NCBI GenBank assembly: GCA_023664345.1
Contig: JAMPFQ010000003.1
Coordinates: 124,001-188,000 of the forward strand
DNA length: 64,000 bases
Direction: 5' to 3'
From: Lachnospiraceae bacterium
Lineage (GTDB): Bacteria > Bacillota > Clostridia > Lachnospirales > Lachnospiraceae
The translations under genes and the position numbers were made by a program. Below, in pieces: positions 42,012-47,519 of this stretch. The notes beneath the pieces were generated by a model. That model was not told the origin of the DNA. It searched no databases and saw only the letters and a list, made by a program, of their open reading frames with translations. Numbering within the stretch: the first letter of the stretch is position 1; each line of letters starts with the position of its first letter.

Positions 42012-42956
42012 TCAGGATGTTGCCTGAAGCCCTGCAAACTGCTCTATCTCCTCAACGCTCAACCCTGTGCATTCCGCAATCTCCTCGATCGTCAGCTTCC
42101 CTATTTTTAGCATCCTGAGCGCCGTTTCTTTTTTGCCCTGGCTTATCCCCTGGCTGATTCCCTGGCTGATCCCCTGGTCCAGGATCCTCCTCGCCTCTGT
42201 CTTGATCATTGCGCCTCTCATCATATCACCTACACCTTTCTGCACATTCCCATACTTCTGCGCGATCTCATGGATAACATCGCCCGACAGGTCGATGATC
42301 GTCCGCTTGTCAAACGCCCCGATCACTCCCTGTTGTTCCAGTTTGTCAAGCCTTTCCAGTATGACCTGATACTCCGCTTTCAGTTCCTCCAGTTCCCGCT
42401 CATTACTATTATACTCCGGAAAACTTTTCTCATGCGAGAAGATGTAAAACGGGATCAGCATCAGCAGGCGCTTCTCAAAAATAGCGTCAAGCGAATAAGC
42501 CTGCACTTTCATGACCGGTATGTCATACTGTACCGTACCGCCGGGCGTGGCAATGACATATCTCATTTTATCAGGCGTCTTTTGATATGTCCGCAGATAC
42601 AGAACCGCTGTGTTGGGGAATGTCACTGTCAGGGTTTCCTCGCTGGTTTCCCCCTCGTCCAATGCTATCTGCGCGTCATACTCAAAAAGCCGCACTGTGA
42701 TCCTGCCATCCGGCAAGCTGCTCTCACACTCGATATGGTATTTCTTCTGTACCTTTCCGAAGATCGTGAAATTCGTATCCGTGATACGTTCTCTGTCCGC
42801 CTCATCCTGCTGGTCCATAAAATGTTCATTGGGGAAAAACCGGATCTCTTCCTCTCCCGTATAATCTTCCCCAAAGATCTCATTGATCACCGGGATGACC
42901 AGTTTCCTGCAGTCATTCAGGATCGTGCGGAACGCCCCGTCATATATATTTGCCAT
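42012..42956 (-). CDS. Rpn-family recombination-promoting nuclease / PD-(D/E)XK transposase-like protein
   Basis: 314 residues. The N-terminal nuclease-like domain has YDGAFRTILNDCRKLVIPVINEIFG, then TNFTIFGKVQKKYHIECES with the putative catalytic Asp/Glu-x-Lys region, and LFEYDAQIALDEG. The C-terminus carries a GISQ repeat (four 12-bp units, near 42135-42182) before a helical EIAECTGLSVEEIEQF tail. Rpn proteins are RpnA-like DNA nucleases that often occur in many copies and vary by repeat slippage in this repeat region. It lies between a Cys/Met gene and flagellin. Confidence 0.82.
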   Translation of the reverse strand: MANIYDGAFRTILNDCRKLVIPVINEIFGEDYTGEEEIRFFPNEHFMDQQDEADRERITDTNFTIFGKVQKKYHIECESSLPDGRITVRLFEYDAQIALDEGETSEETLTVTFPNTAVLYLRTYQKTPDKMRYVIATPGGTVQYDIPVMKVQAYSLDAIFEKRLLMLIPFYIFSHEKSFPEYNSNERELEELKAEYQVILERLDKLEQQGVIGAFDKRTIIDLSGDVIHEIAQKYGNVQKGVGDMMRGAMIKTEARRILDQGISQGISQGISQGKKETALRMLKIGKLTIEEIAECTGLSVEEIEQFAGLQATS

Positions 42957-43096: not shown

Positions 43097-44788
43097 TTAG
43101 CCGAGCAGGGACAGAACACCCTGGTTTGCCTGGTTAGCCTGTGCCAGCATCGCCTGGCCAGCCTGTGCAAGGATGTTGTTGTTCGCGTACTTGACCATCT
43201 CGGTAGCCATGTCAGTATCGCGGATAGCAGACTCAGCGGACTGCGTGTTCTCAACGATATTGTCAAGGTTGTTGATGGTGTGCTCCAGACGGTTCTGGAC
43301 TGCACCCAGGTCAGAACGCTGCTGGGATACTTTCTTGATCGCCGCCTTGATGGTCTCGATGCTGGCGGTAGCTGCTTCTTCCGTCTTCACGCCGGAACCT
43401 TTTAACCCATCAATGCCGATCCCCTTTGCGCTCATGGCTTCAATCTTAACGGTGATCTTGTTTGCGATAGCTTTCTCATCGGTCATCGCGCCGCCTTCTG
43501 CACCTACATGGAGGTTGAACTCCAGGACGGAGCCTGACGCTGCCGCGCCGTCTTCACTTTCCGCGTTCTTAAATGTGAAGTACTTGCCGATCTGTTCTGC
43601 ACCGATTTCTTTCATAGCGCCGTCCTTATCCTCCAGATAAAGACCTCCCTTGTAAACGCCATACTCATCAAAATAGGCGGACATATCTGCATCTTCTGCC
43701 AACGCGTCGGATGTGGCTGTAGCTCCCGTGCGGATGGGTGTTCCCTTTAATTCAAAGTAATCATCCAGGTCATCTACCGCAATCTGGTTCGCGGTCTGAT
43801 TCACTACCTGAGCGCCATGCTCACCTTTTTCATCAGCCGCCACCTTGTAAAGCATCTGGCCGTCTTTGTACTTCAGCTTGCCATCTTCCCCAACTTCCAC
43901 ATACTTGTTGACATCGCCGGTTACTGCACTTGCAGCATCTTTCTTTGCTGTACCGGTTACATAGTCCGTAACATCTGCTGCCGTTGCCCCCTTGGCCTGA
44001 GTAGTATTAGCGCCTACTTTAATAACGACACCTGTACCTGCTGAAACTGTACCATTGTCTGCCACAGAAAAATATGTTGTCAAATCAGTAACCGTATTCA
44101 ACTCCACATACTTTGCTTCATCACTGGCATCGTTTGTCACGTAAACCTTGCTACCACCATCGATCTGTGCTTGAATTGCGTCTGCATCTAACGCCATCGT
44201 TGCCGCTGCAGCAGGTGTTGCCGCGCTGTCAGATGTCACTTCCTTTGTCGAGCCTACCGCAAACGCTTTCTTACCAGCAATAACAGAAATCTGCTGTTCC
44301 GCCAGCTTCTTCGCCGTATCATTCATAACTGCGGTTTTCTTAACTGCCGCTGTATCGTCGGAATCGCTTGCCGCGCCTTTCAGCAGGTAGATCTCGTTGA
44401 ACTTGGTGGTCTCGGACACACGGTCGATCTCGCTGATCAGGGCGTCAACCTCGCTCTGGATATAATCGCGCTCTTCCGAAGAGTTGGTCCCGTTTGCGGC
44501 CTTGGTCGCCAGCTCGTTCATCCTCTGGAGCATATCATGGACTTCTGTCAATGCGCCCTCTGCGGTCTGCACTGCGCTGATACCGTCCTGTGCGTTTGAG
44601 GATGCCTGGGTCAGGCCCCTCACCTGTCTTCTCATCTTCTCGCTGATCGCCAGGCCTGCTGCATCGTCAGCCGCGCGGTTGATCTTGTAACCGGAAGAAA
44701 GTTTCTCGGTGGACTTTGCCTGTGACTTGGTCGTCAGACCGAGCATCCTGTTAGAGTTCATTGCTGTTAAGTTGTGCTGTACTACCAT
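43097..44788 (-). CDS. fliC: Flagellin
   Basis: 563 residues. Conserved D0/D1 N-terminus (MVVQHNLTAMNSNRM, LSSGYKINRAADDAAGLAIS, then MLQRMNELATKAANGTN) extends to about 140. A long variable, Ala/Thr/Asp-rich central domain runs ~145-480. The conserved C-terminal D1/D0 begins near 480 (RSDLGAVQNRLEHTINNL) and ends ANQANQGVLSLLG. It forms the flagellar filament after export. The TLR5-contact helix keeps the QR..EL residues. The mRNA leader has a CsrA-type hairpin and AAGGAGG. The gene follows csrA by 171 bp with no convincing promoter between, so co-transcription from the invertible region is likely. Confidence 0.97.
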   Translation of the reverse strand: MVVQHNLTAMNSNRMLGLTTKSQAKSTEKLSSGYKINRAADDAAGLAISEKMRRQVRGLTQASSNAQDGISAVQTAEGALTEVHDMLQRMNELATKAANGTNSSEERDYIQSEVDALISEIDRVSETTKFNEIYLLKGAASDSDDTAAVKKTAVMNDTAKKLAEQQISVIAGKKAFAVGSTKEVTSDSAATPAAAATMALDADAIQAQIDGGSKVYVTNDASDEAKYVELNTVTDLTTYFSVADNGTVSAGTGVVIKVGANTTQAKGATAADVTDYVTGTAKKDAASAVTGDVNKYVEVGEDGKLKYKDGQMLYKVAADEKGEHGAQVVNQTANQIAVDDLDDYFELKGTPIRTGATATSDALAEDADMSAYFDEYGVYKGGLYLEDKDGAMKEIGAEQIGKYFTFKNAESEDGAAASGSVLEFNLHVGAEGGAMTDEKAIANKITVKIEAMSAKGIGIDGLKGSGVKTEEAATASIETIKAAIKKVSQQRSDLGAVQNRLEHTINNLDNIVENTQSAESAIRDTDMATEMVKYANNNILAQAGQAMLAQANQANQGVLSLLG

Positions 44789-44793
44789 AATTT

Positions 44794-44831
44794 ACCTCCT
44801 TGGTCTTACCTGGTGCAAATCCGTTTGCACC
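44794..44831 (-). promoter_or_regulatory. CsrA-binding leader of flagellin mRNA: loop hairpin plus Shine-Dalgarno
   Basis: On the minus strand GGTGCAAA and TTTGCACC form a perfect 8-bp stem with loop CGGA (44812-44831), presenting ACGGA as CsrA sites usually do. The second GGA lies in the AAGGAGGT Shine-Dalgarno (44794-44801), about 20 nt downstream. The paired-site layout resembles Bacillus hag mRNA. Confidence 0.75.
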
Positions 44832-44959: not shown

Positions 44960-45340
44960 TTACCTGCTCCCCGTGTTTCTGTGGGTGATGATGATCCTGG
45001 GATTTTTCAGCGCCCCGGGCTCTTTCCCTTTCCCTATGGGCTCCGTTTTCCCTGTCTCCGCCTCTTCCATGGGAATCCCCGCCCTTTCGGGTTTTGTTTT
45101 CCTGGCGTCTTTCCTCACATATTTCTCCGGGTGCTCTTCCTCCGCGTAATATTTTGGAAGTTTCGCCCTTTCCTCCGGATCCGTGATGTTCCTCTCCAGC
45201 ACGGTGCTCCTGACGATGTTCTTGTCCCTGGGGGCGTCCACCATGATCCTCAAGTGCTTCCCCGTCCCGCCGAGGAACACCAGCTTGATGTCCTCGCCGA
45301 TCATCAGATATTCTTCCGTACTAACCGTAAGTCTTAACAT
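44960..45340 (-). CDS. csrA: CsrA-family translational regulator with long C-terminal extension
   Basis: 126 residues from the ATG at 45340, against about 60-75 for ordinary CsrA. The first ~52 residues match the family: MLRLTVSTEEYLMIGEDIKL, HLRIMVDAPRDKNIVRSTVLER, with the conserved Arg before the C-terminal strand end. The usual Arg6 is Val. The remaining ~70 residues are charged, Lys/Glu/Pro-rich and probably disordered. CsrA dimers bind GGA motifs and block flagellin translation until FliW sequesters them. No fliW gene is in the window. AAGGAGG precedes the ATG; the frame stays open upstream, but that part is not CsrA-like. It is probably co-transcribed with flagellin. Confidence 0.85.
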   Translation of the reverse strand: MLRLTVSTEEYLMIGEDIKLVFLGGTGKHLRIMVDAPRDKNIVRSTVLERNITDPEERAKLPKYYAEEEHPEKYVRKDARKTKPERAGIPMEEAETGKTEPIGKGKEPGALKNPRIIITHRNTGSR

Positions 45341-45380
45341 GCTAACCTCCTTGTCGCTCTCAGCGATCCCTGCCTGTTTT

Positions 45381-45412
45381 GAATACAACACTTTACTAAC
45401 AAGTGTTGCATT
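45381..45412. repeat. Left recombination site (IRL) of the invertible segment
   Basis: A 32-bp site matching the reverse complement of 46158-46189 at 30 of 32 positions. It contains near-inverted arms (AATACAACAC, GTGTTGCATT; one mismatch) around an asymmetric 11-bp centre TTTACTAACAA. This is the layout of a tyrosine-recombinase core site. It lies 41 bp upstream of csrA. Confidence 0.9.
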
Positions 45413-45415
45413 ATA
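45410..45415 (-). promoter_or_regulatory. Isolated -10-like element at the left end of the invertible segment
   Basis: Minus-strand TATAAT overlaps CCCGATAT, which is 7/8 to the sigma-28 -10. No matching -35 exists: CCCT stands where TAAA is expected, and at best 3/6 for sigma-A. It could give weak csrA-flagellin transcription in the present orientation. Confidence 0.3.
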
Positions 45416-45498
45416 TCGGGAACGGCCTCCATCACAGGGCTGTCCTGCATCGCACGACGATCCGTCAGGGTACGGTACTGAAACAGAAAGGAGACAAC

Positions 45499-46083
45499 AT
45501 GAGCACGACACAACCGATCAGGGATCCGGCACGGCTCCATGAATTTAAGAACTTTTATCTGGAAAAAGAAAGGAACATCCGCAACTACACGCTCTGTGTC
45601 CTGGGGCTGAACACCGCCCTGCGCATCACGGACGTCCTGGGATTGAGATGGGGAGATATTTATGATCTTCATAAGGAATGTTTCCTGGAACATCTGACAG
45701 TCATAGAAAAGAAGACGGGTAAGACCAACACCATAGCCTTAAACCGCGCCATCATCGATACCCTCACCGCATACAGGGCACAGTTTTCTTCCGCCCCCGG
45801 GCCAGATGCCTGCCTGTTTCCCAGCCGCAAGGGCGCAAACTGTCCCATCAGCCGCTGCCAGGCTTTCCGCATCATCAAGAAAGCCGCCCGGTCTGTGGGA
45901 CTGAACCATAATATCAGCTGTCACTCCCTGCGGAAGACTTTCGGCTACCACGCATGGCAGCAGGGGACGCCGCCCGCCCTGCTGATGAACATCTACAATC
46001 ATTCTTCCTATCAGATCACAGAGAGGTATCTGGGAATCGAACAGGATGACAGGGACAATGTTTTCAAGAATATTTCCCTGTAA
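45499..46083 (+). CDS. Tyrosine recombinase of FimB/FimE size, inside the invertible segment
   Basis: 194 residues from the ATG at 45499 (GAAAGGAG precedes it). All catalytic residues are present: Arg42 in NTALRITDVLGLRW, Lys72 in IEKKTGK, His142 and Arg145 in CHSLRKTFGYH, His168 in YNHSS, Tyr177 in ITERYLGI. It has little N-terminal core-binding domain, like FimB, FimE and other inversion recombinases (~190-200 residues). Phage integrases are usually 300-400. The gene is enclosed by its likely target sites. In the present orientation it reads towards argG; after inversion it would read towards csrA-flagellin. Confidence 0.9.
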   Translation: MSTTQPIRDPARLHEFKNFYLEKERNIRNYTLCVLGLNTALRITDVLGLRWGDIYDLHKECFLEHLTVIEKKTGKTNTIALNRAIIDTLTAYRAQFSSAPGPDACLFPSRKGANCPISRCQAFRIIKKAARSVGLNHNISCHSLRKTFGYHAWQQGTPPALLMNIYNHSSYQITERYLGIEQDDRDNVFKNISL

Positions 46084-46113
46084 AAGAAAATGAAAAAAAG
46101 TTGCGATCTGCCC

Positions 46114-46140
46114 TAAAGTATTTCCGGATCCGTCCGATAA
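46114..46140 (+). promoter_or_regulatory. Sigma-28 (flagellar) promoter inside the invertible segment, facing out
   Basis: TAAAGTAT (46114-46121), 11 bp, TCCGATAA (46133-46140). This matches TAAAGTTT-N11-GCCGATAA at 14 of 16 positions, with the TAAA-N15-CCGATAA core exact. The start point would fall around 46147, just before the right site. It points away from csrA-flagellin in this sequence. Confidence 0.85.
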
Positions 46141-46157
46141 ATAAAGTAACAGGCACG

Positions 46158-46189
46158 AATGCAACATTTGTTAGTAAAGTGTTGCATTC
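46158..46189. repeat. Right recombination site (IRR) of the invertible segment
   Basis: Inverted partner of 45381-45412. Its own arms GAATGCAACA-type and TGTTGCATTC pair perfectly around a 12-13 nt centre. It also forms the stem of the terminator-like structure described separately. Confidence 0.9.
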
Positions 46190-46200
46190 GCCCTTTTTTT
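46158..46200 (+). terminator. Terminator-like structure at the right recombination site
   Basis: The ~10-bp stem formed by the site's arms is followed by GCCC and TTTTTTT (46194-46200). It would stop rightward transcripts from the sigma-28 promoter before argG. The left site has no following T-tract, so leftward transcripts after inversion would not be stopped. Confidence 0.6.
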
Positions 46201-46224
46201 ATGCAAACTCGCACCGCGTTTTCC

Positions 46225-46253
46225 TTGCAATTATAGCCTTTCTGTTGTATAGT
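46225..46253 (+). promoter_or_regulatory. Sigma-A promoter of argG
   Basis: TTGCAA (46225-46230) and TATAGT (46248-46253) are spaced by exactly 17 bp, about 43 bp before the argG start and outside the invertible segment. argG therefore need not depend on the sigma-28 promoter. Confidence 0.7.
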
Positions 46254-46295
46254 GGTTTCGAATTGATTTTACATATGTTTATGGAGGAGATCATC

Positions 46296-47519
46296 ATGAA
46301 AGAAAAAGTAGTCCTTGCTTATTCCGGCGGTCTGGACACTACCGCCATCATTCCCTGGTTAAAGGAAAATTTTGACTATGAGGTAATCTGCGTCTGCGTG
46401 GACTGCGGACAGGCCGAGGAACTGGACGGCCTGGAGGAGCGGGCGAAGTCCTGCGGCGCTTCCAAACTTTACATTGAGAACGTGATCGATGAATTCTGCG
46501 ACGAGTACATCGTTCCCTGCGTGCAGGCCAACGCCATTTATGAGAATAAATATCTGCTGGGCACATCCATGGCAAGGCCCCTGATCGCCAAAAAGCTGGT
46601 GGAGATCGCCAGGAAAGAGGGCGCTACCGCCATCTGCCACGGCGCTACCGGAAAGGGCAACGACCAGATCCGTTTTGAACTGGGCATCAAGGCCCTGGCT
46701 CCCGATATCAAGATCATCGCCGCATGGAGGAATGACAAGTGGACCATGGATTCCCGGGAGTCCGAGATCGCCTACTGCCAGGCCCACGGCATCCATCTTC
46801 CTTTTTCCGCAGATTCTTCCTACAGCCGGGACCGCAACATCTGGCACATCAGCCACGAGGGTCTGGAACTGGAGAACCCCGCCAACGAGCCTAACTTCGA
46901 GCATCTGCTGGTGCTGGGGACCACGCCTGAGAAGGCGCCCGATGAGGGCGAGTATGTGACCATGACTTTTGAAAAAGGCGTTCCCACCTCCGTAAACGGC
47001 CAGAAGATGAAAGTTTCCGAGATCATCAGCGCCCTGAACGAGCTGGGCGGAAAGCACGGCATCGGCATCATCGATATCGTGGAGAACCGTGTTGTGGGCA
47101 TGAAGTCCAGGGGCGTTTACGAGACTCCCGGCGGCACCATCCTGATGGAGGCTCACCAGCAGCTGGAGGAACTGATCCTGGACCGCGACACCTACGCGAT
47201 GAAAAAAGAAATAGGCAGCCGTTTCGCAAGCCTTGTATACGAGGGCAAGTGGTTCACTCCTCTCCGTCAGGCGGAGCAGGCGTTTATCAAGGAAACGCAG
47301 AAATATGTCACCGGCGAGGTGAAATTCAAGCTTTACAAGGGCAACATCATCAAGGCAGGAACCACCTCTCCTTATACCCTCTATAATGAGAGCATCGCTT
47401 CTTTCACCACGGGCGACCTGTACGATCATCATGACGCGGAGGGCTTCATCAACCTGTTCGGCCTTTCCTGCAAGGTAAGGGCCATGAAGATGCAGGAGCA
47501 GGGCGAGGAACTGTTCTAA
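46296..47519 (+). CDS. argG: Argininosuccinate synthase
   Basis: 407 residues from the ATG at 46296, chosen because GGAGGAG precedes it and KEKVVLAYSGGLDTTAIIPW is the family start. The ATP pyrophosphatase loop is SGGLDTT; further marks are GATGKGNDQIRFELG near 115 and DSSYSRDRNIWHIS near 170. It condenses citrulline and aspartate using ATP, the penultimate step of arginine synthesis. argH is not in the window. The gene abuts the invertible segment but has its own promoter. Confidence 0.97.
   Translation: MKEKVVLAYSGGLDTTAIIPWLKENFDYEVICVCVDCGQAEELDGLEERAKSCGASKLYIENVIDEFCDEYIVPCVQANAIYENKYLLGTSMARPLIAKKLVEIARKEGATAICHGATGKGNDQIRFELGIKALAPDIKIIAAWRNDKWTMDSRESEIAYCQAHGIHLPFSADSSYSRDRNIWHISHEGLELENPANEPNFEHLLVLGTTPEKAPDEGEYVTMTFEKGVPTSVNGQKMKVSEIISALNELGGKHGIGIIDIVENRVVGMKSRGVYETPGGTILMEAHQQLEELILDRDTYAMKKEIGSRFASLVYEGKWFTPLRQAEQAFIKETQKYVTGEVKFKLYKGNIIKAGTTSPYTLYNESIASFTTGDLYDHHDAEGFINLFGLSCKVRAMKMQEQGEELF

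Follow-up and report, generated by a model that had tools for sequence, protein, structure and literature searches.

A segment of about 0.8 kb in the window, by which we mean the whole 64,000-nucleotide stretch of Lachnospiraceae DNA analysed here, is very probably a self-contained promoter switch for the csrA-flagellin gene pair beside it, flipped by its own predicted recombinase. Between two inverted sites the segment holds the recombinase gene and a predicted promoter; the gene to its right is apparently argG, a name that we accept from the translation. Our best reading of the sequence is a Hin-like flagellin phase switch that would be built from a tyrosine recombinase and belong to a family in Lachnospiraceae. 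The locus has the following features.

45381..45412, plus strand: csrA-side recombination site, with 12-bp arms about the 7-bp asymmetric core TACTAAC (sequence, repeat and genome search).
46158..46189, minus strand: far-side recombination site, an inverted copy matching at 30/32 positions (sequence, repeat and genome search).
45499..46083, plus strand: tyrosine recombinase of 194 aa including the initiator Met, with an ATG start, inside the segment (ORF and PF00589).
46114..46139, plus strand: predicted sigma-D (sigma-28) type promoter motif TAAA-N16-CCGATA, facing away from csrA-flagellin, i.e., OFF (sequence, motif scan and weight matrix; consensus from the available text of PMC3720852).
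46156..46200, plus strand: the far site as RNA, a 14-pair hairpin followed by T7, terminator-like (terminator scan and folding; T-run in 62/73 modules).
44960..45340, minus strand: csrA paralogue, 126 aa (Pfam).
43097..44788, minus strand: flagellin, 563 aa, with no sigma-D-type motif of its own found within 500 bp (Pfam and motif scan).
44812..44831, minus strand: leader hairpin GGTGCAAA-CGGA-TTTGCACC before the flagellin gene, a predicted CsrA target (folding and leader comparison).

The original prediction had placed two 32-bp inverted sites with 30/32 identity at the ends of the segment, and a repeat search of the window recovered them at the same coordinates as 32-nt inverted repeats that are 94% (30/32) complementary. 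Read in one direction, the sites are GAATACAACACTTTACTAACAAGTGTTGCATT and GAATGCAACACTTTACTAACAAATGTTGCATT, in agreement with the inverted arms around an asymmetric centre that had been described. The core CAACACTTTACTAACAA, allowing up to 2 mismatches, occurs at these two places only in the 3.88-Mb genome, and a control pattern gave 0 matches. Pfam confirmed both csrA and flagellin, the genes said to adjoin the segment.

The 194-residue tyrosine recombinase claimed between the sites was found as well: it scores 85.2 bits in a Pfam search with PF00589 (cut-off 27.1), and an alignment of 19 proteins shows no variation at R41, K71, K74, H141, R144, H167 and Y176 (initiator Met not counted). We take R41, K71/K74, H141, R144, H167 and Y176 to have the catalytic roles in this enzyme. 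The protein belongs to the tyrosine recombinase family, with a catalytic domain carrying R, K, H-x-x-R, H/W and Y; the Pfam match starts as early as residue 22, which leaves little space for an N-terminal core-binding domain. Its proposed likeness to FimB/FimE extends to size and mode of action only and not to the family models, since two NCBIfam 'tyrosine-type DNA invertase' models, presumably those of FimE and FimB, give 47.4 and 42.1 bits, far below their cut-offs of 222 and 221. At the window locus, a sigma-70 scan upstream of the recombinase gene found no promoter. In 9 of the 73 modules compared below, the recombinase match starts just 23-29 bp past the 28-nt site match, so that the promoter of this gene may extend into the site or be located beyond it; one idea is that expression of the recombinase may depend on the orientation of the segment.

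The predicted promoter, TAAAGTATTTCCGGATCCGTCCGATA at 46114-46139, lies between the recombinase stop codon and the right-hand site. In work on flagellin genes from Eubacterium and Roseburia, the accessible part of PMC3720852 gives a general sigma-28 consensus of TAAA-N15-CCGATAT and a Butyrivibrio form of TAAA-N16-17-MCGATAa, and the motif fits the sigma-28 form from these genes. The pattern TAAAG-N15-CCGATA has 7 matches genome-wide versus 2 for a reversed control, so what gives the motif weight is where it stands and that it recurs. The right-hand site with its seven T is the sole terminator-like match in 45200-46350, where shuffled sequences average 1.0; given these control and shuffle counts, lone terminator or promoter matches mean little without the family pattern. 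As RNA, the far-site hairpin folds at -22.5 kcal/mol (z -4.8), and 0 of 200 shuffles were as good. The csrA-side site likewise folds well (z -3.1), and the terminator is therefore marked by the T-run and not by the hairpin alone. The sigma-D motif and the terminator-like site, both absent from the original prediction, give the inversion a meaning.

In the mechanism that we propose, the segment would be flipped by the predicted recombinase through recombination between the inverted sites at its two ends, so that the predicted sigma-D promoter would face csrA-flagellin in one state (ON) and point the other way in the second (OFF, as found in the window). Transcripts started in the OFF state would reach the far site, where the arms and T-run form the predicted terminator, and argG would be protected; those started in the ON state would read through the csrA-side site, where such a T-run is lacking, into csrA and flagellin. 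Our inference is that these sites are the substrate of the recombinase, that the promoter is used by sigma-D, that flagellin expression depends on the orientation, and that CsrA expressed together with flagellin targets flagellin mRNA. As the present orientation of the motif faces argG, the promoter could instead serve the far side, with the switch controlling argG and csrA-flagellin being a bystander. We consider this extremely improbable: the terminator-like hairpin lies between the motif and argG, and a scan predicts a sigma-70-like promoter at 46225-46253, ahead of argG and past that hairpin. Moreover, csrA/flagellin is the common neighbour (by selection) of the 73 modules, whereas, of the loci compared, BLAST matched the argG flank in G082 and G001 alone.

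A recombinase match of some kind was obtained in 124 of 146 related genomes, 51 of them at E 1e-20 or better and the others weak. For comparison of the surroundings, we assembled 116 loci from the 60 stretches at the top of the match list, the best 80 of 565 relatives (named records) and the window, which counts among them; each has a recombinase with at least 45% identity over more than 140 residues, and identical ones were merged. The titles of the locus records name Lachnospiraceae, Acetatifactor, Lachnoclostridium, Roseburia, Eubacterium, Petralouisia, Clostridium, Clostridiales, 'bacterium' and Lactobacillus rogosae. In 73 of the 116 loci, the recombinase lies within an inverted site pair and csrA or flagellin starts outward on one side, the csrA/flagellin neighbour being a criterion by which the 73 were selected and not a result. 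The other 43 were set aside for lack of a site pair, because their repeat was weak or not a site, or because csrA/flagellin was out of reach, in some cases owing to contig ends. Because near-identical relatives were kept (L138/L152/L158, L065/L069 and L040/L041), the 73 are loci and not independent events. L109, L055 and L115 were left out, their best repeat being flagellin coding or leader sequence. L128 and L147 have a related recombinase and a site pair without csrA/flagellin in reach, and other genes may be switched there; L064 is a related recombinase segment, also without csrA or flagellin in reach. Two further loci outside the 73 (L052 3213-5761 and L230 3080-5086) have segments of approximately 2 to 2.5 kb in which additional sequence separates the recombinase from the motif.

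Within the 73 modules, the central 8 bp of the two sites are alike at 8/8 positions in 62 loci and at 7/8 in 11. Mean agreement is 98% for the two sites of one locus, as against 42% for sites of different loci and 41% when the second site is reversed, and there are 60 distinct cores. Such private, matched and asymmetric cores are, we infer, what strand exchange within pairs would keep. That the layout of sites recurs in 73 loci, with different cores, rules out a chance origin in the window. The recombinase gene is divergent from csrA in 65/73 and runs in the same direction in 8/73. A run of at least 4 T stands just outside the far site in 62/73 modules versus 9/73 for the csrA-side site, which supports the proposal that the far site doubles as the OFF-state terminator. 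A recombinase flanked by terminal repeats, with relatives that have no csrA/flagellin in reach (L064, L128 and L147), might also be expected of a small mobile element that excises and integrates and is here by happenstance. This is very improbable, given that the recombination-type sites are inverted and not direct, that the csrA-flagellin neighbourhood and the position of the promoter recur over 73 loci, and that sister modules occur in opposite orientation.

The window genome itself has 10 Flagellin_N matches and 5 csrA genes; four of the latter (57-59 bits) are in modules, and one (91 bits) is on contig C4 near fixed flagellins. A second recombinase, 63% identical, is present on C14 with the same layout and a different core. 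The third module, on C17 (L037 4799-5056), spans approximately 0.25 kb and consists of csrA-flagellin, two sites and a sigma-D-type motif facing away. No recombinase was found between its two sites; this segment could be flipped only in trans and might be served by another recombinase. A fourth module, on C11, is cut by the contig end. All three resolved modules of the genome are OFF.

To score orientation across the family, we used a promoter weight matrix that is partly circular, having been trained on 54 motif hits from the same loci, with the maximum of 730 shuffled stretches as threshold. The promoter scores above this maximum in 68 of the 73 modules and points away from csrA-flagellin in 66 and toward it in 2; a fixed motif expression alone settles 55/73 (53 OFF and 2 ON). 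Of the five loci below the matrix threshold, four (L065, L066, L067 and L069) carry a similar motif in the corresponding position. In the 66 OFF loci, 40-51 bp (once 63 bp) separate the end of the motif from the far site's outer edge. In the ON loci, L057/L153 (one record) and L105, the predicted promoter leads into csrA-flagellin.

One ON module can be compared with an OFF module of another species that shares its core, TGGGGGA: L057 (ON) and L051 (OFF). The outer half of the csrA-side site, TAACAGAATGCAACTTTC, is the same in both, and it joins the recombinase-side inner half in L051 and the promoter-side inner half in L057. The far outer half (one difference) shows the opposite joining, i.e., half-sites are exchanged reciprocally. 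In a BLAST comparison of L051 with L057, the segments match forward (73%) and the csrA flanks reversed (76%). Since the far flanks beyond the site are mostly unlike, the two are sister modules and not proven orthologues.

Assembly breaks point in the same direction. In the window genome (G000), the end of contig C11 (csrA side) and the start of C10 fall on the same base of two partner sites, the 19 nt up to that base being common to both; contigs C48 and C47 of G089 break off likewise, with 24 nt in common. These are the two cases found in the part that was checked of 46 csrA matches (33/101 genomes, genus search). A search of the window genome did not find the segment that would lie between C11 and C10, the close recombinase matches being only those of the window locus and C14. 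The coincident contig ends suggest that both orientations were present within one population, which breaks assemblies in this way; a short repeat alone is the weaker explanation (24 nt could break a short-word assembly, 19 nt less so). Site-specific inversion at a flagellin locus, as originally predicted, is hence supported by the matched cores, two relatives in opposite orientation, the half-site exchange and the contig ends. The reversed segment that was sought in relatives is seen in sister modules, but the argG-flanked orthologues of G082 and G001 share the window orientation (both OFF), so that no inverted copy of the locus itself has been observed. In the G001 orthologue (L229 3834-4640, G001:C6), the recombinase is in pieces and the N-terminal region of the flagellin is matched only in part, which has the appearance of module decay.

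Candidate reasons for the 66:2 skew are selection against the ON state, directional recombination, or the loss of mixed loci from assemblies. Because assembly loss removes mixed loci and not pure ON ones, a real OFF bias is likely. With 66 of the 68 scored modules, the three resolved modules of the genome and both argG-flanked orthologues OFF, a locked or rarely switched state is possible; the cassette may once have inverted, leaving the flagellin as a silent archive behind a promoter fixed OFF, a reading that the broken recombinase and flagellin genes of G001 would also fit. That the locus is such a relic seems unlikely to us: the catalytic-type residues are invariant in 19 relatives, cores are matched within the pair and different between loci, and both ON examples and contig forks exist. 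A segment that its own recombinase can still flip is the reading that we prefer.

We found no sigma-D-type motif within 500 bp upstream of any of the four module flagellins of the window genome; the fixed flagellin at C4:45572 in the same genome has its own at -223. Leaders could be obtained from 71 of the 73 modules, and a GGA-loop hairpin of at least 6 pairs is present in 60 of these 71 versus 9 of 355 shuffled leaders. For the flagellin of the C11 module, the final 75 nt yield a stem of just 4 bp, and a longer GGA hairpin lies further upstream. All 73 module CsrA proteins have arginine 44, a residue that we assume to have a role in RNA binding. The leaders of the fixed flagellins C4a and C4b carry a GGA-loop hairpin too, and CsrA made only in the ON state could thus hold down resident flagellins. 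In Salmonella, FljA holds down the resident flagellin; by analogy, module CsrA, made only when ON, could act as a repressor of resident flagellins.

Several known systems resemble the cassette. In Salmonella, the Hin gene and the promoter of fljBA lie in an invertible segment, and FljA is a post-transcriptional regulator. In the window locus, too, one predicted invertible segment combines a recombinase gene with an outward promoter, and the flagellin operon next to it also encodes a post-transcriptional regulator, CsrA in place of FljA. It differs in its tyrosine recombinase, in having several modules per genome with private cores, and in a site that is also terminator-like. The sections available of PMC9368917 describe the Hin segment and the fljBA promoter in Salmonella, and those of PMC3798978 describe Hin as a serine recombinase needing a Fis-bound enhancer. 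The recombinase in the present segment is of the tyrosine and not the serine family; with regard to an invertible promoter for a flagellin operon, a predicted promoter lies within inverted sites and both orientations occur among relatives, as read from sequence alone.

FimB and FimE are short recombinases that switch fimbriae, and their genes lie outside fimS. The E. coli fimS system and the cassette have in common a short tyrosine recombinase and an invertible promoter; in contrast to FimB/FimE, the recombinase here lies inside the segment, and it falls below the cut-offs of the NCBIfam invertase models. The accessible text of PMC5386303 presents fimS as an invertible promoter. According to the parts available of PMC7241687 and PMC5386303, inversion controls flagella in C. 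difficile through the tyrosine recombinase RecV, which inverts several switches; the flagellar switch is 154 bp with 21-bp repeats, lies upstream of the early flgB operon, and a post-transcriptional mechanism has been suggested for it. That system shares with ours a Firmicute host, a tyrosine recombinase and flagellar control by inversion (proposed here). It is unlike ours in that here the recombinase is inside the segment, a promoter motif is carried and single flagellins are concerned. Most modules have their own recombinase, and the C17 module, which has none, might be served in trans. Finally, the predicted promoter of the window locus is, by sequence, enclosed by inverted repeats, as in the invertible promoters or 'invertons' of gut bacteria, reportedly promoters between inverted repeats (Jiang et al. 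2019). The cassette would work like Hin/fljBA and fimS and is a member of neither by the tests made. A literature search, with most subscription papers outside its coverage, found no description of this layout.

A wider proposal, which we offer tentatively and hold to be somewhat improbable as a whole, is that the flagellin repertoire of Lachnospiraceae resides in privately addressed inversion cassettes, each with its own recombinase, a sigma-D promoter, a site serving as OFF terminator, and a CsrA that when ON would repress resident flagellin mRNAs via GGA-loop hairpins. The outcome would be filament replacement and antigenic variation in commensals, with an origin separate from Hin. If true, there would be a second route, via a tyrosine recombinase, to a Salmonella-type flagellin switch. 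If many flagellin genes sit behind mostly-OFF private switches, detecting a gene in a metagenome is not enough to say which flagellin the cells display, and orientation must be read too. Antibodies to gut microbiota flagellins have been studied in Crohn's disease and chronic fatigue syndrome, and Lachnospiraceae are named in the portions available of both texts (PMC11285207 and PMC11580831). For three flagellin genes of Eubacterium and Roseburia, the accessible part of an earlier study reports that no promoter was found upstream (PMC3720852); cassettes of this kind may explain these missing promoters.

A different arrangement is seen in L055 (4521-5588) and L115 (4874-5722), the latter a record of Eubacterium xylanophilum ATCC 35991. 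In both, a recombinase and one predicted promoter lie between sites flanked by two divergent flagellins, so that inversion would swap one flagellin for the other. In G053, L231 5146-5171 (csrA-flagellin with one site) and L064, both on G053:C11 and approximately 105 kb apart, have the core TTTGTATATTGTG in common, as if the two had been parted by a large inversion between sites. In the window, the ORF at 42012-42956 (minus strand), downstream of the flagellin gene, has a short repeated ISQG stretch near its end.
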